Assembly: GCA_001723855.1 (NCBI GenBank)
Contig: MCBC01000131.1
Location: 1-23,777, forward strand
DNA from: Candidatus Altarchaeales archaeon WOR_SM1_86-2
GTDB lineage: Archaea; Altiarchaeota; Altiarchaeia; IMC4; MCBC01
DNA length: 23,777 nucleotides
Reading direction: 5' to 3'
Shown piece by piece: positions 1,756 through 21,972 of this stretch (its first letter is position 1; every line of letters starts with the position of its first letter). The notes under the pieces are model-generated. The model was not told the origin of the DNA. It was given only the letters and a program-made list of their open reading frames with translations, and did not search any database. The position numbers and the translations under genes are program-made.

Positions 1756-2979
1756 GTGAATGCTATAGAAGTCAATAATGTATGGAAGAAATTTAAAATT
1801 CCTCATGAAAAAAGGGACACATTGGTTGAGAATGTAGCAGGTTTCATTAAGGGAGAAAAAGCCGCTTATGAGGAATTCTGGGTGTTGAAAGACATCAACT
1901 TTAATGTCAAAGAAGGAGAATGTCTTGGCATTATCGGAGAAAACGGCAGCGGGAAAAGTACATTATTGAGGATAATTTCAAACATTCTCCCAATAAATAA
2001 AGGTAATGTTAAGGTTAGAGGCGGCATAGGACCATTTCTTGAACTTGGCACCGGATTCAGGGGAGATTTAACTGCAAAGGAAAATGTTTATTTATATGGG
2101 CATATAATGGGTTTAAAGAAGAAGCAAATTGATAATGTAATAGACAACATTTTTGAATTTGCTGAACTTGAGCGATTCAAAGACATGAAACTCAAGGATT
2201 TTTCATCCGGCATGAGCATGAGATTGGCATTTTCAACTGCGATTGCTACAAACCCTGATATTTTATTGATAGATGAAGTGTTAGCGGTAGGGGATGAGTC
2301 CTTTCGGAGAAAGTGCATGGATAAGATTATGGAGTTTAAAAGTGAAGGCAAAACAATTGTGTTTGTTTCACACAGTTTAGCATCTGTAAAAAATCTGTGC
2401 GATAAAGGTATATGGCTTAATGACGGTGTTATAGAAACACAAGGTTCTGTAGAGAAAGTTGTCGGATTCTATCTTGAATCAATCAGAAAAAAAGAGGAGA
2501 AGGAACTCTTGAAAGAGCATAAAAAGACAGAGGAAGAAAAACAAAAGGACAGATGGGGCTCTGGAGAAATTGAAATTACCGATGTTAAATTCTTTAACAA
2601 AGAGGGCAAGGAATGCCATGTTTTTGAAACCGGGGATAATATGGTGGTGAGGATGAAGTACATGGCGCATAAGGAAATTAAAAACCCTATTTTTCAAGTT
2701 CAGATAATCAGAAATGATAATACCTTCATATGTGGAATGAATACAGAAAGAGATAATATAAAGATTAGCACGTTACCAAGAAAGGGGAAAATTGATCTCG
2801 TTTTTGATAATTTATCCCTACTCAAGGGGGTTTACTTTTTTAATGTGGGAATTTTATCCAATTGGGATGGGCCACATTATGATTACCATGACAAACTTTA
2901 TAAGGTTATAATAAAAAGTAAGAAGTGTGACGGAGCGGGAATTTTCGTGAACCGCCATAAATGGATAATAAAAAAATGA
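1756..2979 (+). CDS. Polysaccharide ABC exporter ATP-binding protein (Wzt type) with C-terminal substrate-binding domain
   Basis: The cytoplasmic ATPase of a Wzm/Wzt-type glycan exporter. Visible motifs are Walker A GENGSGKST (61-69), signature DFSSGMS (148-154), Walker B ILLIDEVLAVGD (169-180) and switch His206. The N-terminal EVNNVWKKF and FWVLKDINF are typical of TagH/Wzt/KpsT proteins. After a charged segment (about 243-267) a domain of about 140 residues begins at RWGSGEIEI, as in the Wzt C-terminal domains that recognise a modified glycan end before export. At 407 residues it has the length expected of the two-domain form. The start is GTG 1756. The stop overlaps the next gene in an ATGA, so the two are probably translated together. 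The permease just upstream is broken, so either another permease serves this ATPase or export is lost. Confidence 0.92.
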   Translation: MNAIEVNNVWKKFKIPHEKRDTLVENVAGFIKGEKAAYEEFWVLKDINFNVKEGECLGIIGENGSGKSTLLRIISNILPINKGNVKVRGGIGPFLELGTGFRGDLTAKENVYLYGHIMGLKKKQIDNVIDNIFEFAELERFKDMKLKDFSSGMSMRLAFSTAIATNPDILLIDEVLAVGDESFRRKCMDKIMEFKSEGKTIVFVSHSLASVKNLCDKGIWLNDGVIETQGSVEKVVGFYLESIRKKEEKELLKEHKKTEEEKQKDRWGSGEIEITDVKFFNKEGKECHVFETGDNMVVRMKYMAHKEIKNPIFQVQIIRNDNTFICGMNTERDNIKISTLPRKGKIDLVFDNLSLLKGVYFFNVGILSNWDGPHYDYHDKLYKVIIKSKKCDGAGIFVNRHKWIIKK

Positions 2980-5564
2980 AACAAAAAATTTTAGTGATGG
3001 GTTTGGATGGGGCAACATTTGATTTGATAAAACCATTGATTAAAATGGGAAAATTGCCAAATATGGCCAAGTTAATGGAAAGTGGGACCCATGGTGTTTT
3101 AAAATCAATAATTCATCCAATAACCCCCGCAGCGTGGGTGTCTTTTTATACGGGAAAAAATCCAGGTAAACATGGTATATTTGATTTTAGGGAACGAAAA
3201 AAAGGAAGTTACGATACGCAAATTATCAATGGAAGTTTCTGTAAAGAGAAAAGTTTGTGGTCTATTTTGAGTGATAATAAGAAAAAAGTTGCGATTATAA
3301 ATGTGCCCATGACTTTCCCACCAGAACCAGTAAATGGTTTTTTAATTTCAGGTATGGATTCTCCAAGTAATGATGTAACGTTTACCTATCCACCAGACCT
3401 GTATATGAAATTAAAAAATGAAATTGGTGAGTACATAATTGATACTCGGTTTAACGAAAATACTGAAAAAGACCAATATATCGCCAGCATAGATAAGATG
3501 ATAAGGGATAGAGGAAAGACAGTAAAATATTTTCTAAGAAAATATGATCTTGATTTTTTGATGGTCGTTTTTGTGGCCACAGACAGAGTTTCTCACGCAT
3601 TTTGGAAGTATATGGATCCAAATCACCCTGATCATGATCAAAAAGAAAAGGATAAATATGGAAATGTTATATTTGAATGCTATCAAAAAATAGATAATGA
3701 GATAGGAGAAATTCTTAATGTTGTAGATGACAACACACAAATTATAATAATGTCCGATCATGGTTTTGGTCCGTTATATAAGGATATTTATATAAATAAA
3801 TGGCTGATGGACAAGGGTTTGTTAAAATTAAAGGAAGAAGCAGATGGCGAATTAAGAGTATCTAGTGTTGATTGGGGAAATAGATTCTCTAGTGTTGATT
3901 GGGAAAATACAAAAGCATATTCATTTGGATTTTTTGGTAATATTTTTATTAATTTGAAGGGTAGAGAAAAGAGAGGTGTTGTAGAACCCGGTAAGGAATA
4001 TGAAGATGTAAGGGAGTATATAATCAATGGATTATACGATCTTTGTGATGTTGAGGACGGTAAAAAAATCGTAGATAAGGTTTATAAAAGTGAAGAGTTA
4101 TATTTTGGTAAAAATAGTGACAAAGCACCAGATTTATTGATTAAGGCAAGAAACTATAGTTATATGGCTAGGGATTCTTATGAATTTAAGTTTGATGACA
4201 TCGTAAGTAAACCAATAATAAGCCACTCGGGTAACCATACTACGGAAGGCGTGTACATAATATCAGGAAAGGATATTAATAGTAATTTGACTTTAAATGC
4301 GAGTATATTGGATGTCGCACCAACAATATTACATATGATGGAGATTCCAATTCCATCCGATATGGATGGTCGTGTGTTAAAAGAAATTTTTAAGGATAAC
4401 AGCAAGTTTAATGAAAGAGAAATAAAATATCGGACACATTATGAAGAGTGTAGTGAAAAAGAAAAGATTAAGGCAGCAATAAAAAAATGCATTAATGAGG
4501 AACATAAGGACAATCTCGATAGGATAAACATTCGTGATATGGAATCCACAGGTAAACGCATAGTTCCCGGTCAAGGTAAACCACTTGAACGCCTAGTTCC
4601 CGGTAAACCAGAACTTAATGATACTTATGTTGAGCATATATCTAGATACATCTTTGCAAAAAATTACATTAAAGACAAGACAGTATTGGATACTGGTTGT
4701 GGATGCGGGTACGGCTCTTATTATTTAGCAGAGGAAGGTGCTAAAAAGGTTGTTGGTGTAGATATATCAGAAGAGGCGATAGAATACTCAAAAGAGCACT
4801 ACAAAGACGAAAAATTAGAATTTAAAGTTATGGATTGTACTAATTTGTCTTTTCCTGACAATAGTTTTGATGTTGTTGTTTCTTTTGAGTTGATTGAGCA
4901 TATTCCCGAATATAAAAGGCATCTATCTGAAGTGCAACGCGTACTAAGAAAAGAGGGAGTATTTATAATTTCTACACCAAACAAAAAAATATATTCAGAT
5001 TGTGCAGAGATACCTCAGAACGAATTTCATGTTAAAGAGTTCTATTTTAACGAATTTCAAGAGTTACTTATGGATTACTTTGATTATGTGGAGATTTACA
5101 ATCAGAGATATTATGACGAATTCTTAATTAAGAGACAGTTACAAGAGCTGCATGTGAACATACGCAATCTGACACAAAAACTGCAAATGATTGGCTGTTT
5201 ATCCCCCGAAGAATCAATTCAGTTTTCTGAAGAAATTAAACCGATAAACTTAACATTAAATGATATTAGAATAGATAAAGAGAATATTGAAAATCCATTA
5301 TTTTTTATAGCAGTGTGCGGAAAACAAAATCTAGAAAAATATAAAATGATAATGCGTTGTATGCCGAAAAAAAAAGAGAATTCAATAAAAGATATTTATG
5401 AAAACAGTAAACAATTAAAGAATGAACTAAAAAATTATAATTCTATTGTTAAATTGGTGGAAAATAAAATAAATGAAAAGGACAAAGTGATAAAAAATCT
5501 TGAGAATAGTAAAGCACTTAGATTTGCAAGGAAAATTGATGAGATAAAAAGGAGAGTCATGTGA
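2976..5564 (+). CDS. Fusion: AlkP-superfamily phosphodiesterase + SAM methyltransferase + C-terminal coiled coil
   Basis: Residues are counted from ATG 2961; I prefer the in-frame ATG 2976 (residue 6), which forms an ATGA overlap with the upstream stop. Residues about 8-480 are a type I phosphodiesterase / nucleotide pyrophosphatase domain of the alkaline phosphatase superfamily: GLDGATF with metal ligand Asp16 and probable nucleophile Thr19, TPAAWVSFYTGKNPGKHGI, TDRVSHAFW, SDHGFG (Asp266, His267) and SGNHTTEG. About 555-700 is a class I methyltransferase with VLDTGCGCG (575-583), GVDIS and a preceding ERLVPG box typical of this group. The last 60-70 residues are Lys/Glu/Asn-rich and probably coiled. 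There is no signal peptide, so it should act in the cytoplasm, possibly removing or transferring a phosphate ester and methylating a glycan or lipid intermediate; the substrate is unknown. A 27-base tandem repeat at 3861 duplicates SSVDW in the first domain. Confidence 0.85.
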   Translation: MKQKILVMGLDGATFDLIKPLIKMGKLPNMAKLMESGTHGVLKSIIHPITPAAWVSFYTGKNPGKHGIFDFRERKKGSYDTQIINGSFCKEKSLWSILSDNKKKVAIINVPMTFPPEPVNGFLISGMDSPSNDVTFTYPPDLYMKLKNEIGEYIIDTRFNENTEKDQYIASIDKMIRDRGKTVKYFLRKYDLDFLMVVFVATDRVSHAFWKYMDPNHPDHDQKEKDKYGNVIFECYQKIDNEIGEILNVVDDNTQIIIMSDHGFGPLYKDIYINKWLMDKGLLKLKEEADGELRVSSVDWGNRFSSVDWENTKAYSFGFFGNIFINLKGREKRGVVEPGKEYEDVREYIINGLYDLCDVEDGKKIVDKVYKSEELYFGKNSDKAPDLLIKARNYSYMARDSYEFKFDDIVSKPIISHSGNHTTEGVYIISGKDINSNLTLNASILDVAPTILHMMEIPIPSDMDGRVLKEIFKDNSKFNEREIKYRTHYEECSEKEKIKAAIKKCINEEHKDNLDRINIRDMESTGKRIVPGQGKPLERLVPGKPELNDTYVEHISRYIFAKNYIKDKTVLDTGCGCGYGSYYLAEEGAKKVVGVDISEEAIEYSKEHYKDEKLEFKVMDCTNLSFPDNSFDVVVSFELIEHIPEYKRHLSEVQRVLRKEGVFIISTPNKKIYSDCAEIPQNEFHVKEFYFNEFQELLMDYFDYVEIYNQRYYDEFLIKRQLQELHVNIRNLTQKLQMIGCLSPEESIQFSEEIKPINLTLNDIRIDKENIENPLFFIAVCGKQNLEKYKMIMRCMPKKKENSIKDIYENSKQLKNELKNYNSIVKLVENKINEKDKVIKNLENSKALRFARKIDEIKRRVM
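3861..3909 (+). repeat. 27-base-period in-frame tandem repeat inside the phosphodiesterase domain
   Basis: Bases 3861-3882 recur at 3888-3909 with one mismatch in 22. In frame this gives SSVDWGNRF followed by SSVDWENTK, a nine-residue duplication in a probable surface loop. Confidence 0.7.
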
Positions 5565-10814: not shown

Positions 10815-11882
10815 CTACATCATTATATCAGAATGTTCCCCCACAACAAATCTATCGCCCACTGGAATTTTCTCCCGTTTAGATAAAATTTTTGAATCCC
10901 GTCCAATCAAACTCTCAACTATTTTTTTTCCACAATTGATGATCGATTCACCCATAATTATAGAATCTTCGATTTCTCCGCTGATAATTTTCGTATCATT
11001 ACCAACAGATGTGTAGGGTCCTATGTATGCATCTGCAATTTCACAATTTTTACCTATGCTCACAGGCCCCTTTATGACCGAATTACCCCTGATAATCGTG
11101 CCTTTACCAATTTCAACCCTGCCGTGAATTTCAGCCCTCTCCTCAACCTTTCCATTGTTAAAACCTTCAATTTCATCAAGGAATACGCGATTCGCCTCCA
11201 AAATATCTTCCGGTTTTCCCGTATCCTTCCACCAGCCTTTGACTATGTGATAATCAACATCATACCCATTATTTATAAGTTCCTGGATTGCATCCGTAAT
11301 TTCTAATTCCCCCCTCCAGGATGGTTTTATATTCTTTACTGCTTCAAAAATCGGTTTTGTGAATAAATAAACACCTACAAGCGCCAAATCCGTCTTTGGA
11401 AGTTTTGGTTTTTCCACAAGACGAACAACTTTATTGTTTTCAATTTCAGCAACACCAAATTGCCGGGGATCTTCAACATGAGATAAAAGTATGGATGCAC
11501 CTGGCTTTTTATCATTAAATTCATTGACCATCTCCTCAATACCCTGCTTCAGTACATTATCTCCAAGATACATTACAAACGGCTCATCACCTAAAAAATC
11601 TTCAGCGACCATAACAGCATGTGCCAATCCTTTCGGCTCTCCCTGTTCGATATAAGTAACATTAACTCCAAATTTTGAGCCGTCGCCAACCGCGTTCCTC
11701 ACCTGTTCTGGCATATTTAACCCTAAAATTATTCCAACATCTGTTATTCCTGCTTCTTTTAAATCCTCAATTCCGTAAAATAATACGGGTTTGTTTGCTA
11801 CAGGAATTAGTTGTTTTGGTCCCGTATGTGTGAGCGGTCTCAAACGCGTTCCGCTTCCCCCAGATAAAATCAAACCCTTCAT
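10815..11882 (-). CDS. rfbA: Glucose-1-phosphate thymidylyltransferase, long form with C-terminal beta-helix
   Basis: It makes dTDP-glucose from dTTP and glucose-1-phosphate, the first step to dTDP-L-rhamnose. Signature motifs are LSGGSGTRLRP (6-16), GPKQLIPVANKP, YLGDN (metal site) and GWWKDTGKPEDIL. At 355 residues it is about 60 longer than bacterial RmlA; from about 245 it has left-handed beta-helix hexapeptides (GRVEIGKGTIIRG, GPVSIGKNCEI), as in archaeal and StrD-like enzymes. Those could instead use UTP, but the adjoining rfbB, rfbC and rfbD support dTTP. It overlaps rfbD by four bases (ATGA). Confidence 0.93.
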   Translation of the reverse strand: MKGLILSGGSGTRLRPLTHTGPKQLIPVANKPVLFYGIEDLKEAGITDVGIILGLNMPEQVRNAVGDGSKFGVNVTYIEQGEPKGLAHAVMVAEDFLGDEPFVMYLGDNVLKQGIEEMVNEFNDKKPGASILLSHVEDPRQFGVAEIENNKVVRLVEKPKLPKTDLALVGVYLFTKPIFEAVKNIKPSWRGELEITDAIQELINNGYDVDYHIVKGWWKDTGKPEDILEANRVFLDEIEGFNNGKVEERAEIHGRVEIGKGTIIRGNSVIKGPVSIGKNCEIADAYIGPYTSVGNDTKIISGEIEDSIIMGESIINCGKKIVESLIGRDSKILSKREKIPVGDRFVVGEHSDIMM

Positions 11883-12757
11883 TTTATTTCTTTTTTCATT
11901 TCATTTAAACCTTCGTAAATATTCATTAAATGAACCCCCGATTTTTCTTCAGTTTTACCGACATCCAACGAGGAATTTCGTGGTCTTTTAGCTTTTTGTT
12001 TTAAACTATCAGATGTTATAGGATTTATAAGTTTTTTATTTAAATTAAAAACATCCGCAATTTTCTCTGCAAACTCGTATCTTCCTATTTCTTCACTTCC
12101 AGCAGTATGAAATACTCCGTCGATGTCTTTTCCAACCATAGTTAAAAGCACTTCTGCAAGATTATCCGCATAAGTCGGCGAAGTATATTGGTCTATAACC
12201 ACGTTAACTCTATTGTCATTCTTTAATTCATCAATAACCCATGTTACAAAGTTGAAATTCTTATGCCATCCGTAAAGCACGCTTGTTCTTGCAATGCAGT
12301 AATCTATATCAATATTTTTAATCAACTTCTCCCCTTCAAGTTTTGTTTGACCGTAAACACTTACAGGGTTTGTTGGATCTGTTTCTTTGTACATTCCTTT
12401 TTCACCGTCAAACACAAAGTCTGTTGAAACATAAATTAATCTTGCCCCAACTTCTTCACAGCCAAGCCCAATATTCTCTGTTCCTTTGGCATTTATTTTA
12501 TATGCTTCTTTGGGATGTTCTTCGCAGTAATCCACGTTGGTTAATGCTGCAGCATGTATAACCGCAGAAGGATTTAATTTTTTGATAAGTTCGATTGTTT
12601 TATCTTTATCGGACACATCAAGTTTATAGAATTCATAATCGGTTATATCTTTTTGTGCTACTCTGTCGGCGCCAAAACATTTAAATTCTTTAAAACCATG
12701 TTTTATTACCTTGTTTCCAAGCAAACCTGAACATCCTGTGATCAGTATATTTTCCAT
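11879..12757 (-). CDS. rfbD: dTDP-4-dehydrorhamnose reductase
   Basis: Catalyses the last step to dTDP-L-rhamnose, the NAD(P)H reduction of dTDP-4-keto-rhamnose. It is an SDR fold of 292 residues: GCSGLLGNKV (8-17) is the Rossmann glycine loop, AALTNVDYCE the RmlD signature, YVSTDFVFDG the catalytic Ser/Thr strand, and VYGQTKLEGE holds the Tyr-x3-Lys pair. It is first in the minus-strand operon rfbD-rfbA-GT2. Its start codon is only 35 bases from the divergent rfbC start, so both transcripts must begin within or near that gap. Confidence 0.93.
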   Translation of the reverse strand: MENILITGCSGLLGNKVIKHGFKEFKCFGADRVAQKDITDYEFYKLDVSDKDKTIELIKKLNPSAVIHAAALTNVDYCEEHPKEAYKINAKGTENIGLGCEEVGARLIYVSTDFVFDGEKGMYKETDPTNPVSVYGQTKLEGEKLIKNIDIDYCIARTSVLYGWHKNFNFVTWVIDELKNDNRVNVVIDQYTSPTYADNLAEVLLTMVGKDIDGVFHTAGSEEIGRYEFAEKIADVFNLNKKLINPITSDSLKQKAKRPRNSSLDVGKTEEKSGVHLMNIYEGLNEMKKEIK

Positions 12758-12792: not shown

Positions 12793-13350
12793 ATGCCGTT
12801 CAAATTTAAAAGACTGGAAATTCCAGAGGTTGTTCTCATAGCACCAAAAGTTTTTGAAGATGATAGGGGCTTTTTCATGGAGACCTATAGGAAAAGCGAT
12901 TTTGCAAAATTTGGAATAAATAAAGATTTTGTTCAGGAAAACCATTCAAGTTCAACAAAAAATACTTTGCGAGGATTGCATTATCAAAAAGAACCAATGG
13001 CTCAGGGGAAATTGGTGAGGGTCATTAGAGGAGAAATTTTTGACGTGGGGGTTGACATAAGAAAGGGCTCCCCAACTTATGGGAAGTATATATCTGAAAT
13101 TTTGTCGGAAAAAAATAAATTAATGCTTTACATTCCGGAAGGGTTTGCTCATGGGTTTTGCGTTTTAAGTGATGTTGCGGATGTTATATACCTGACAACA
13201 GAAGTGTACACCCCAGAGTATGACAGAGGGATAATCTGGAATGATGAGGATTTGGCTGTAGAGTGGCCAATGGAAAAACCGATATTGTCGGAAAAAGATT
13301 TAAAGCAGCCAGGATTAAAGGATGCAGATATAAATTTTCAATATAAATAA
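12793..13350 (+). CDS. rfbC: dTDP-4-dehydrorhamnose 3,5-epimerase
   Basis: Epimerises C3 and C5 of dTDP-4-keto-6-deoxyglucose. The 185-residue cupin shows DDRGFFMETY (23-32), FVQENHSSS, LRGLHYQ with catalytic His63, GEIFDVGVDIRKGSPTYG, and YIPEGFAHGF. The length is normal for the family. It is followed nine bases later by rfbB, and the two form a short plus-strand operon facing away from rfbD-rfbA. Confidence 0.95.
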   Translation: MPFKFKRLEIPEVVLIAPKVFEDDRGFFMETYRKSDFAKFGINKDFVQENHSSSTKNTLRGLHYQKEPMAQGKLVRVIRGEIFDVGVDIRKGSPTYGKYISEILSEKNKLMLYIPEGFAHGFCVLSDVADVIYLTTEVYTPEYDRGIIWNDEDLAVEWPMEKPILSEKDLKQPGLKDADINFQYK

Positions 13351-13359
13351 ACAAGAGAG

Positions 13360-15405
13360 ATGAAAAATGTTTTAATAACAGGTGGTGCTGGATTTATAGG
13401 CAGTAATTTTGTGCATTATATGCTTGAAAAACACGATGACCATGAAATTACAGTCCTGGATAAATTGACTTATGCCGGAAATCTGGATAACCTTAAGGAT
13501 GTGATTGATGAAATTAAATTTGTAAAAGGCGACATCTGCGATAAAAAAGTAGTTGAAAAATTAATTAAGGGCTCTGATGTTGTGATTAATTTTGCAGCGG
13601 AGACCCATGTTGACCGCTCCATCATCGATGCAGGAACATTTGTAAAAACAGATGTCTTTGGCACTTATCGATTACTTGAAGCGTCACGAAAATTTGATGT
13701 TGAAAAATATATTCAGATTAGCTGTTATGATGAAAAAACGAGAGCGTTAACAACAGAGGGATTGAAAACATACAAGGAGTTAAAAGAAGGGGATATGGTT
13801 TTTTCATTGAACCCAGTGACTCAAAAAATAGAAGTTAAACCGATACAGAAGGTTATAATTCAACATTATAAGGGAGAGATGATCCATTTCAATAATCAAC
13901 GAATCGATTTACTTGTAACGCCTAATCACAATATGTTTATACTTAACTCACAGAAAACAAAGCTACTTGTCGAACCAGCGGAAAAAACATCCCAGAGAAG
14001 TATATTTTATATGCCGGGAGGGTCATGGATCGGTAAAGGGAAAGAACATTTTGATATAAAAGATCATGGCAGAGTTAAAACAAAGGATTTGATGTATGTA
14101 TTAGGTATCTTTATTGGTGATGGATTTACTGCCTATCAAGAAAAAGAAGTGGAGACAAAAAGCGGTTTAATAAGAGAGGATTTTCTTAATGAAGCAAGGG
14201 ATATAGATACAGGCAGGTTTAAAAAAATAAAGAAAAAAGGAAATTACAAATCTAAAAGTCATTCATATAGAATATTTTTTGATATACCTGAAGATGATAA
14301 ATGCCGTAAAAGAGTAGAAAAAACGCTGTCCAATTTAGGAATAAAATATCATTGTCATAAAGGGAAAGCGGGGGAACATTTGTATTTCACATCCAAAGCA
14401 TTTATGGAATTTTTTAATCAATGTGGACAAGGTGCATATGATAAACATATTCCTCGCTGGGCGTTGGACCACCCACCAGAATATCTTCGTTACTTACTCC
14501 AGGGTTTAATGGATTCAGATGGTCACGAGGGGGTTATATACCATACGGTCTCAGAGAGATTAGCTTCCGACATATCTGAACTTTGCATAAAATTAAATCT
14601 TAAACCAAGCATACATAAGAGACATACCAAGTCATTCATAAATGGCAGAAAGATAGAAGGTGATGCATATTATGTTTTCATTGCCGACACCACTAAATCA
14701 ATCAGTCGTCATAGAAACAAAATAGTTAATTATGAGGGGATCATCTGGTGTTTGAAAGTCAAAGATAATAAAAATTTCATTGTTGAGAGAAATGGCAGAT
14801 TTGATTTTTGCGGAAACACAGATGAGGTATACGGAAGCATTGAAAGGGGCTCATTTAAGGAAACAGATGCATTGAATCCTTCATCACCTTATGCTGCAAG
14901 TAAAGCATCAGCAGATATGCTTGTTAATTCCTATTATGTTACTTATGGTCTGCCGACAATCATAACAAGGTCATCAAATAACTTTGGACCTTACCAGTAT
15001 CCTGAAAAATTAATCTCATTATTTGTTACAAATCTATTACAAGAAAAAAAAGTCCCGGTTTATGGTGATGGACTGAATGTTAGGGACTGGATTTATGTTA
15101 TGGATAACTGCGAGGCAATTGATGTGGTTATTGAAAAAGGAAATTTTGGTGAAATTTATAATATTGGGGGCGATAATGAGAGAGCCAATATCGAGATCAC
15201 CAATATAATTTTAAAAGAACTCGGGTTTGATGAGAGTTATATAGAATTTGTGGAAGATCGACTGGGACATGACAGAAGATACTCACTGGATTCGACAAAG
15301 GTTAAAGCACTTGGCTGGAAGCCAAAATATAAGTTTGAAGATGCTATTGTGGAAACTATTGAATGGTATAAAGATAATGAGTGGTGGTGGAGAAAACTGT
15401 TGTAA
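13360..15405 (+). CDS. rfbB: dTDP-glucose 4,6-dehydratase precursor interrupted by an intein
   Basis: Converts dTDP-glucose to dTDP-4-keto-6-deoxyglucose. The precursor is 681 residues. Removing residues 122-486 leaves 316, a normal RfbB length. The N-extein (1-121) has GGAGFIGSNF (8-17), LDKLTYAGN, NFAAETHVDRS and ends KYIQIS. The C-extein starts TDEVYGS (487-493), then SPYAASKAS with Tyr511 and Lys515 (146 and 150 after splicing), RSSNNFGPYQYPEKLI, GDGLNVRDWIYV and GHDRRYSLD. All SDR-extended dehydratase motifs are present, split only by the intein. The catalytic Thr-Asp-Glu triad begins at the first C-extein residue, so an unspliced chain should be inactive. The reading frame is open throughout, so splicing at the protein level is required and sufficient. 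Confidence 0.95.
   Translation: MKNVLITGGAGFIGSNFVHYMLEKHDDHEITVLDKLTYAGNLDNLKDVIDEIKFVKGDICDKKVVEKLIKGSDVVINFAAETHVDRSIIDAGTFVKTDVFGTYRLLEASRKFDVEKYIQISCYDEKTRALTTEGLKTYKELKEGDMVFSLNPVTQKIEVKPIQKVIIQHYKGEMIHFNNQRIDLLVTPNHNMFILNSQKTKLLVEPAEKTSQRSIFYMPGGSWIGKGKEHFDIKDHGRVKTKDLMYVLGIFIGDGFTAYQEKEVETKSGLIREDFLNEARDIDTGRFKKIKKKGNYKSKSHSYRIFFDIPEDDKCRKRVEKTLSNLGIKYHCHKGKAGEHLYFTSKAFMEFFNQCGQGAYDKHIPRWALDHPPEYLRYLLQGLMDSDGHEGVIYHTVSERLASDISELCIKLNLKPSIHKRHTKSFINGRKIEGDAYYVFIADTTKSISRHRNKIVNYEGIIWCLKVKDNKNFIVERNGRFDFCGNTDEVYGSIERGSFKETDALNPSSPYAASKASADMLVNSYYVTYGLPTIITRSSNNFGPYQYPEKLISLFVTNLLQEKKVPVYGDGLNVRDWIYVMDNCEAIDVVIEKGNFGEIYNIGGDNERANIEITNIILKELGFDESYIEFVEDRLGHDRRYSLDSTKVKALGWKPKYKFEDAIVETIEWYKDNEWWWRKLL
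13723..14817 (+). other. Intein with LAGLIDADG homing endonuclease domain inside RfbB
   Basis: 365 residues (122-486 of the precursor). It begins with Cys122 in CYDEKTRALT, followed by KELKEGDMVFS (block A). Block B is LLVTPNHNMFI with Thr187 and His190. Two LAGLIDADG motifs follow: LGIFIGDG (248-255, Asp254) and LLQGLMDSDG (379-388, Asp387). Both catalytic acids are kept, so the endonuclease may be active. The end is IWCLKVKDN, KNFIVERNG (block F), then FCGN with terminal Asn486; the following extein residue is Thr487. The penultimate residue is Gly rather than the usual His. The Ser/Cys and Asn/Thr junctions restore RfbB exactly: KYIQIS joined to TDEVYG. Base composition is like the host gene. 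Confidence 0.93.
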
Positions 15406-20818: not shown

Positions 20819-21277
20819 ATGCAAAAACCGAACAGAAAAGGACAAGGTGCGATGGAGTACGTTATGGTCTACGGCTGGGCAATCATGGTTGTGATAGTCG
20901 CGGGCGTTGCGCTGTGGTATATGGGGGTGTTTAACCTCGGAGTAACACCAAAAAACTTTAAGGGGTTTGAACCATTGAAACCATTGAGCTGGGCGGTTTA
21001 TTCCGACGGCAGTGCTTCAATTATTATGGTGAGTGCCGAAACGACGATTATAACCATTACTGACGTAGGAGGCGACTGTGATTTTAACCTGCCAAATGAA
21101 ACGCATATTTCTCCCGGGGGGGAATTTCAGATAACTGCAGATGCAGGCGACTGTGATACTGGTGCTGCGAAGGGGGGTGTTTACCATATAGAGGTGAGAA
21201 TTATCTACAGCAAGTCAATAAGTGCGGTACCCGAGACCCACAGCAGTACAGGGACAATACACGGCCAGTATGAATAA
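20819..21277 (+). CDS. Class III signal peptide (archaeal pilin-like) protein 1
   Basis: Begins MQKPNRKGQGAMEY followed by a hydrophobic helix (about 15-37). Archaeal prepilin peptidases of the EppA type cut before the Gln in such Q-x-x-x-E sequences, here after Gly8, with Glu13 the conserved +5 Glu; the helix would then pack in a pilus core. The outer domain of about 115 residues has LSWAVY, two cysteines (Cys87, Cys112) that may pair, a sequon N93ET, and ends HSSTGTI.GQYE. About 60% identical by eye to the next gene. The family is secure, the assembled structure (pilus or surface protein) is not. A T6 tract follows at 21282-21287. Confidence 0.88.
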   Translation: MQKPNRKGQGAMEYVMVYGWAIMVVIVAGVALWYMGVFNLGVTPKNFKGFEPLKPLSWAVYSDGSASIIMVSAETTIITITDVGGDCDFNLPNETHISPGGEFQITADAGDCDTGAAKGGVYHIEVRIIYSKSISAVPETHSSTGTIHGQYE

Positions 21278-21495: not shown

Positions 21496-21972
21496 ATGCA
21501 AAAACCAAACAGAAAAGGACAGGGTGCAATGGAGTACCTTATGAGCTACAGCTGGGCAATCCTGGTGGTTGTGATTGTAGGTGTTACGCTGTGGTATATG
21601 GGGGTGTTTAGTTGGTTTGGGGGAATATACTCCTTTGGGGGAGCACCCAAAACCTTCACCGGGTTTGAAGAAATAAAGCCGTTGAGTTGGGCAGTATACG
21701 AGAACGGCAGCGCCGTGATTACCATGATGAGTTTGGATTACGCATCTGTGACCCTCACCAGTGTGGGTGGTGATTGTTCATTCAGGTTACCGGATGACAG
21801 GGTGATCCCCCCCGGAGAAGCATTTCAGATAACTGCGGATGCAGGGGACTGCCCTGCTGATGCCAGGGGCACGGTCTACCGCATGGGCGTAAAGATCTTT
21901 TACACAACGAATATAGCACACCAGGGTGAATTACATTCCAGCACAGGGACAATACAAGGCCCTTATGAATAA
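21496..21972 (+). CDS. Class III signal peptide (archaeal pilin-like) protein 2
   Basis: A paralogue of the preceding gene. The first 14 residues are identical, including the K7-G8|Q9 cleavage site and Glu13. The helix (15-37) is conserved; six extra residues (FGGIYS region, about 41-49) lengthen the segment after it. Cys94 and Cys119 match the Cys pair of protein 1, and QITADAGDC is shared exactly. The sequon is N70GS instead of N93ET. It ends HSSTGTIQGPYE. Its own promoter copy and strong Shine-Dalgarno suggest independent, probably high expression. It probably co-assembles with protein 1. Confidence 0.88.
   Translation: MQKPNRKGQGAMEYLMSYSWAILVVVIVGVTLWYMGVFSWFGGIYSFGGAPKTFTGFEEIKPLSWAVYENGSAVITMMSLDYASVTLTSVGGDCSFRLPDDRVIPPGEAFQITADAGDCPADARGTVYRMGVKIFYTTNIAHQGELHSSTGTIQGPYE

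Follow-up and report, generated by a model that had tools for sequence, protein, structure and literature searches.

Inteins are found mainly in polymerases, topoisomerases, helicases and ribonucleotide reductases, and also in housekeeping genes including those for metabolic enzymes (PMC7765530; articles are cited by PubMed Central (PMC) identifier and from excerpts). Residues assisting in splicing are a Thr and a His in block B, the penultimate His and positions 4 and 13 of block F, with F:4 most often Asp, next Cys and next Trp, and F:13 most often His (PMC4031507). A phage intein with a penultimate Gly splices and becomes slower when this Gly is exchanged for His, and an upstream block-F His can substitute for the penultimate His (PMC5050341). 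Here, we describe an intein in the rmlB gene for dTDP-glucose 4,6-dehydratase (RmlB, RfbB) of Candidatus Altarchaeales archaeon WOR_SM1_86-2, encoded on contig MCBC01000131.1 (positions 1 to 23,777 of the forward strand; these 23,777 nucleotides are referred to as the window).

The closest known inteins are the archaeal VMA inteins TliVMA and PhoVMA (7qsu, 7qss, 7qst), PI-PfuI (1dq3) and PI-PkoII (2cw7), which reside in other hosts and at other sites and are 18-21% identical; PI-PkoII was the sole PDB chain retrieved by a sequence search at E up to 0.1 (E 0.012). The mycobacteriophage RDF intein (Bethlehem gp51) is, by description, likewise class 1, phage-borne and equipped with a penultimate Gly, but its host protein differs (PMC5050341). 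Class 3 inteins (WCT motif: Trp B:12, Cys F:4, Thr G:5, no Cys1 or Ser1) share Cys F:4, whereas the window intein has Cys1, Met B:12 and Cys G:5, and a class 3 assignment was rejected. A mini-intein reading was also rejected. Inteins of the NAD-synthetase type (L120-L123) are 42-44% identical over positions 1-365 and agree in the GN end and Cys F:4, but differ in their unrelated host, their insertion site (GYF↓TKYGDGG; ↓, insertion point) and the retained block-F His. These four were found among 392 genomes of the phylum of L006; their hosts are NAD-synthetase-like by reading, and P0225, with a similar flank, has PF02540.

Among the open-licence PMC papers listed by the searches, no title or abstract opening concerns an intein in RmlB, RfbB or GDP-mannose dehydratase (GMD), nor does any retrieved passage for RmlB or RfbB (supplementary tables and InBase lay outside this scope), in keeping with the original prediction, made from the sequence alone, that RfbB is not a commonly listed intein host. 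In the excerpts at hand, PMC5109656 merely cites an intein paper, PMC3655853 deals with a ribonucleotide-reductase intein, and PMC4465626 covers ribonucleotide-reductase inteins and, separately, rfbB clusters. The element is little noticed and widespread and belongs to an already known type of mobile element; beyond its placement, the present analysis adds its spread across paralogues, its viral carriers and the loss of both assisting histidines.

An intein at the catalytic threonine of RmlB

The features of the rmlB open reading frame (ORF), all on the forward strand, are as follows; counts refer to aligned precursors.

13360..15405, +, rmlB precursor ORF, 681 residues, N-extein, intein and C-extein (stop codon counted in)
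13360..13722, +, N-extein, residues 1-121, with the NAD-binding part of RmlB and KYIQIS at its end
13723..14817, +, intein, residues 122-486, 365 residues, C1 to FCGN
13723..13761, +, block A, residues 122-134, nucleophile Cys122 (Cys1; 140/140)
13918..13929, +, block B TPNH, residues 187-190, Thr B:7 and His B:10 (each 140/140)
14101..14124, +, first LAGLIDADG motif LGIFIGDG, residues 248-255, Asp254 (Asp in 139/140)
14494..14523, +, second LAGLIDADG motif LLQGLMDSDG, residues 379-388, Asp387 (Asp in 139/140)
14731..14778, +, block F YEGIIWCLKVKDNKNF, residues 458-473, Cys464 = F:4, Lys471 in the column occupied by His in GMD-type hosts
14806..14817, +, block G FCGN, residues 483-486, penultimate Gly485 and terminal Asn486 (each 140/140)
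14818..14820, +, codon of Thr487, the enzyme's catalytic Thr and at once the +1 nucleophile for splicing
14818..15402, +, C-extein, residues 487-681, begins TDEVYG
14890..14904, +, YAASK, residues 511-515, supplies the enzyme's catalytic Tyr and Lys (no exchange of Y511 or K515 among 112)

Residues 122-486 very probably constitute a class 1 intein into which a LAGLIDADG homing endonuclease is inserted, and which would splice and cut DNA. According to its translation the ORF is uninterrupted. The junctions read KYIQIS↓CYDEKTRAL (KYIQIS, residues 116-121; CYDEKT, residues 122-127) and GRFDFCGN↓TDEVYG (FDFCGN-TDEVYG from residue 481 onward), base 13723 starts residue 122 and base 14817 ends residue 486. 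The original prediction had placed the intein at exactly these coordinates, with which the block residues and family conservation agree, and its claim that removal of residues 122-486 regains KYIQIS-TDEVYG in a continuous frame was borne out, as the family sequence is restored; the 365-residue insert and a 316-residue spliced RmlB add up to 681 residues. Both LAGLIDADG motifs carry their catalytic Asp. In the Pfam profile search, LAGLIDADG_3 (PF14528) exceeds its threshold (23.1 versus 22.5), and Intein_splicing (PF14890) matches residues 130-476 (E 2.7e-8) just below its gathering score. The best 50 matches of a fold search with the whole precursor were all to enzyme folds, and the intein was therefore folded and searched separately; the predicted model of the intein alone matches HINT and LAGLIDADG inteins. 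The insert (GC content 0.342) shows no compositional contrast to the exteins (0.347 and 0.361).

The host scores 440.3 bits against TIGR01181 (curated cut-off 365.1), in two stretches separated by a gap at residues 122-486. It carries the dTDP-glucose 4,6-dehydratase motif [ST]DExnYx3K, in which Asp is the acid and Glu the base (PMC8987622), as T487, D488, E489, Y511 and K515. Since this is the motif listed, Thr487 belongs to a Thr-Tyr-Lys triad. The +1 residue is hence indeed the enzyme's own catalytic Thr, as had been claimed, but the accompanying notion of a Thr-Asp-Glu triad needs correction: the triad is Thr/Ser-Tyr-Lys (Thr487, Tyr511, Lys515), and Asp488 and Glu489 form the acid/base pair (PMC8987622). 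The unspliced precursor is likely inactive, and splicing may, as originally proposed, gate the rhamnose pathway; a second, intein-free rmlB may be present elsewhere in the source genome.

Conservation and splicing residues

A search with the intein region yielded 292 clusters (E <= 1e-3) among 3361 candidates. The window sequence was aligned with 144 homologues, namely the best 120 of these 292 clusters and 24 further ones from a search with the whole precursor. Five of the 145 sequences lacked the N-terminal part and were left out, such that 140, including the window, were analysed; homologues were chosen by shared words and score, and mini-inteins may be hidden by this choice. The insert is 333-385 residues long (median 365), and TDE follows it directly in 137 of the 140. 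The -1 Ser, Cys1, the Thr and His of block B (TxxH), the penultimate Gly and the C-terminal Asn are each present in 140/140, and the +1 residue is Thr in 138 and Ser in two, a pattern of class 1 inteins apart from the penultimate His, which is usual though not obligatory in that class. F:4 is Cys in 139/140, and G:5 is Cys in 130/140 and Ser in 10/140. This conservation pattern is not due to chance. Where given, the organisms are Omnitrophota, WS2, Patescibacteria and an 'archaeon'; most sequences stem from metagenomes. Rather than an isolated case, the window intein belongs to a large family of alleles that extends over bacteria, an archaeon, viral contigs and paralogous enzymes.

In a wider set, the penultimate residue is Gly in 251/251 and F:4 is Cys in 250/251 inteins. 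The block-F His column distinguishes the hosts: it holds His in 65 of 67 GMD-type inteins, versus Lys in 125, Arg in 12 and His in one of 141 RmlB-type inteins. The RmlB branch lacks both C-terminal histidines, which would be a derived state if other hosts show the older one. Substitution by an upstream block-F His, as noted in PMC5050341, is not available to the window intein. As both assisting histidines are absent and the +1 residue is Thr, slow or incomplete splicing is possible.

Empty sites, occurrence in genomes and viral copies

Among 25 rmlB genome loci, 22 cross the site without an insert; such insert-free relatives are expected for an in-frame class 1 insertion, and the possibility raised at the outset that the segment is a conserved native domain gave way to the intein reading. 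The three carriers are NPL-UPA2 Unc8 (L001) and two Patescibacteria (L002, L003), and L003 has, in addition, a gene without intein that shows the GMD motif QASTSEMFG. In the Woesearchaeota loci L004 and L005, an apparent long insertion was rejected, because neighboring genes had been joined; rmlB there is empty. In samples of five phyla, the allele was present in 0/371, 1/9, 0/148, 1/379 and 0/392 genomes, the zero among 148 genomes being uninformative by itself; the genome of the carrier L003 is absent from these samples. Weaker matches (26-45% identity) in 6/371 and 6/392 genomes are apparently inteins in other ORFs.

In IMG/VR, hosts with the TDE motif carry the intein at nine loci (L042-L050) on contigs of 15 to 406 kb, for example L043 (406 kb), L044 (= L026, 239 kb), L050 (219 kb) and L049 (154 kb); L044 and L045 are near-identical, as are L046, L047 and L049. 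A phage-family check, which covered L026 only, identified as neighbors a PhuZ tubulin (phrog_4733, E 1.2e-9), a DNA helicase (phrog_16, E 1.3e-73) and a glycosyltransferase (phrog_2170, E 4.2e-36), while five of the ten ORFs had no match. The profile phrog_540 ('nucleotide-sugar epimerase'), matched by L026:5001-7097, has 715 positions, twice the length of a normal enzyme, and perhaps contains intein-bearing members.

Paralogous hosts and mobility

Related inteins occupy several other enzymes. The P0084 host is nearest to RmlD (TIGR01214, 208 bits, below the cut-off of 224), those of L052 and L053 to GMD (TIGR01472, 366 and 292 bits, below the cut-off of 415), that of P0093 to UDP-glucuronate decarboxylase (2b69, E 1.7e-48) and that of P0109 to CDP-tyvelose 2-epimerase (9rl0, E 6.2e-64). 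A search with the L052 intein retrieved 102 proteins, 92 with PF16363, a domain also matched by RmlB; three were already in the first set. A quick tree was calculated for 252 inteins, leaving out 14 duplicate, truncated or double rows and five truncated sequences. For 232 of these inteins, the insertion point lies in the catalytic Ser/Thr motif of nucleotide-sugar dehydrogenases (141 RmlB-type, 69 GMD-type, 22 others); five occupy other sites of such enzymes, and 15 have putative hosts outside the short-chain dehydrogenases (SDR), labelled by flanks or listed Pfam domains. Host labels derive from the flank motif and our own labelling. 'RmlB-type' denotes the TDE motif and not a profile score; it is only a motif label because all four TDE-motif hosts tested (P0101, P0104, P0116, L050) score 169-302 bits in TIGR01181, below the cut-off of 365. 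When 30 chosen hosts were aligned, the +1 residues (Ser, Thr or Cys) of 21 shared one column, those of six lay one codon upstream of it and those of three one codon downstream.

Several side observations concern insertion sites. GMD-type hosts (P0156, P0157, P0172 versus P0145, P0148; P0167) show three registers, one codon apart, within QA-S-S/T-S-E. A GMD-like ORF in L033 (Woesearchaeota) and P0242 has its intein at another site, DY↓CEAMW, with +1 Cys. In IMG/VR, two further sites are occupied by related inteins: in L058 and L059 the catalytic Tyr motif (A↓CYDEGKR) of a host that is UXS-like by reading, and in L063 and L072 TMGEYG↓TPN of a host that reads as sulfoquinovose-synthase-like; sugar dehydrogenases are therefore targeted at several active-site motifs. 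The single nucleotide-sugar epimerase-like ORF L051:3-3053 harbors two inteins (SS↓SSEVYG and FFN↓CYGTRQ). Related inteins also occur at GYGA or AYGA↓STKGNT in PF13489 plus PF08484 methyltransferases (P0202, P0205, P0208, P0233 and, by flank, L055) and in PF01717 proteins of the methionine-synthase type (P0236, P0240).

The eight closest inteins are 76-80% identical to the window intein, their enzymes 61-67%. For P0077 and P0078 the values are 88.0% for the inteins and 43.9% for the hosts, and for P0077 and the RmlD-hosted P0084 they are 77.5% and 24.4%. In the quick tree, P0084 groups with P0077 and P0078 (support 100 in the SH-like approximate likelihood-ratio test, SH-aLRT) and lies inside a set of 78 that is otherwise entirely RmlB-type (support 98). 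These comparisons yield one well-supported case of an intein that moved between paralogues, RmlB-type and RmlD. Host labels change at least 15 times on the tree, versus 99 in shuffles, so that jumps are rare and most copies keep their host type. Several long branches meet, hosts outside the SDR are interspersed, and the root and the direction of older jumps are not fixed by the tree. In the DNA of ten occupied sites, positions +1 to +17 are nearly constant except for wobble positions.

Proposed mechanism and alternative explanations

In the proposed splicing reaction, Cys122 would attack the Ser121 carbonyl, the N-extein would be transferred to Thr487, cyclisation of Asn486 would release the 365-residue intein, and an O-N shift would create the Ser121-Thr487 bond of the 316-residue RmlB. 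Empty rmlB alleles would be cut by the endonuclease where IS↓TDEVYG is encoded, and repair would copy the intein into them. As this motif encodes the catalytic Ser/Thr common to nucleotide-sugar SDR, the lineage has entered paralogous enzymes now and then, and some copies reside in large viruses.

Several points weigh against this picture. The C-terminal half lacks both assisting histidines (Gly is penultimate, and Lys replaces the His of block F) and has Thr as the +1 residue, the PF14890 score of 34.2 bits is slightly below the gathering score of 35.8, and the four TDE-motif hosts tested fall under the RmlB cut-off. The intein is present in just three genome loci with named organisms, and the allele is rare (2/1299 sampled genomes, both of them search seeds). 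Inteins are more identical than their exteins in only 5908 of 9730 pairs (in 92 of the 139 pairs that include the window), and intein and extein distance matrices correlate (r 0.34, reached by 0/200 permutations), from which it follows that the history is partly one of shared descent. Splicing, DNA cutting and precursor inactivity are inferred, whereas the analysis demonstrates the anatomy of the insert and its predicted fold, its conservation, the empty sites, a horizontal signal and one clear paralogue jump.

Going further, we consider it unlikely, if conceivable, that an intein lineage specialising in nucleotide-sugar SDR, at their catalytic Ser/Thr motif, across bacteria, archaea and large viruses has, in its RmlB branch devoid of both assisting histidines and with Lys/Arg in block F, evolved a distinct, possibly Lys-assisted and Cys-redox-sensitive splicing that times surface-sugar synthesis. 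Distinctly improbable is also that a functional intein acts as a conditional switch, with slow or redox- or temperature-dependent splicing controlling nucleotide-sugar synthesis. Splicing would rebuild the catalytic centre, Cys residues are conserved in the splicing blocks (position 1 in 140/140, F:4 in 139, G:5 in 130), and in the M. smegmatis DnaB intein, splicing is paused by a disulfide that involves the catalytic Cys (PMC6195587); however, selfish homing alone explains the sporadic presence, the empty relatives and the intact endonuclease, and no regulatory correlate was seen in the window. The noncanonical Gly, Lys and Thr would also suit a decayed, non-splicing intein and a dead rmlB in this organism, but the frame is open, the catalytic residues of the exteins and all splicing nucleophiles are intact, decay would not produce Gly in 140/140 or Lys/Arg in 137/141 RmlB-type inteins, and the mycobacteriophage intein mentioned above splices with its penultimate Gly, and more slowly once this is replaced by His (PMC5050341), all of which renders decay very improbable. 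A retained native accessory domain of an RmlB subfamily would be conserved wherever present, as the insert is, but can practically be dismissed given the 22 empty loci, the separation of Ser121 from catalytic Thr487, the match of the predicted model to HINT and LAGLIDADG inteins and the 77.5% identical copy in an enzyme of 24% identity.

A class 1 homing intein thus remains the preferred reading. It represents a large family that sits in the catalytic centre of enzymes for cell-surface sugars and has members on viral contigs of 150-400 kb, and it offers a natural series for studying how an endonuclease tracks a conserved protein motif between gene families and how inteins splice without either assisting histidine and with Thr as the nucleophile.

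Genetic environment

The window contains a complete dTDP-rhamnose gene set, with rmlC and rmlB on the forward and rmlA and rmlD on the reverse strand, surrounded by genes for glycosyltransferases, an ABC-transporter ATPase and radical-SAM proteins. Two ORFs resembling proteins with class III signal peptides hinted at an archaeon but matched no Pfam family, and no claim is based on them.

12793..13350, +, rmlC (TIGR01221, 264 bits)
11879..12757, -, rmlD (TIGR01214, 265 bits), homologous site YVS-TDFVFDG empty
10815..11882, -, rmlA, long form (TIGR01208, 488 bits)

Elsewhere in the window, an 867-residue ORF (2961-5564) fuses a type I phosphodiesterase domain to a methyltransferase domain, and two small, secreted-looking proteins without Pfam match are encoded in tandem (20819-21277 and 21496-21972) and have near-identical starts (QKPNRKGQGAMEY).
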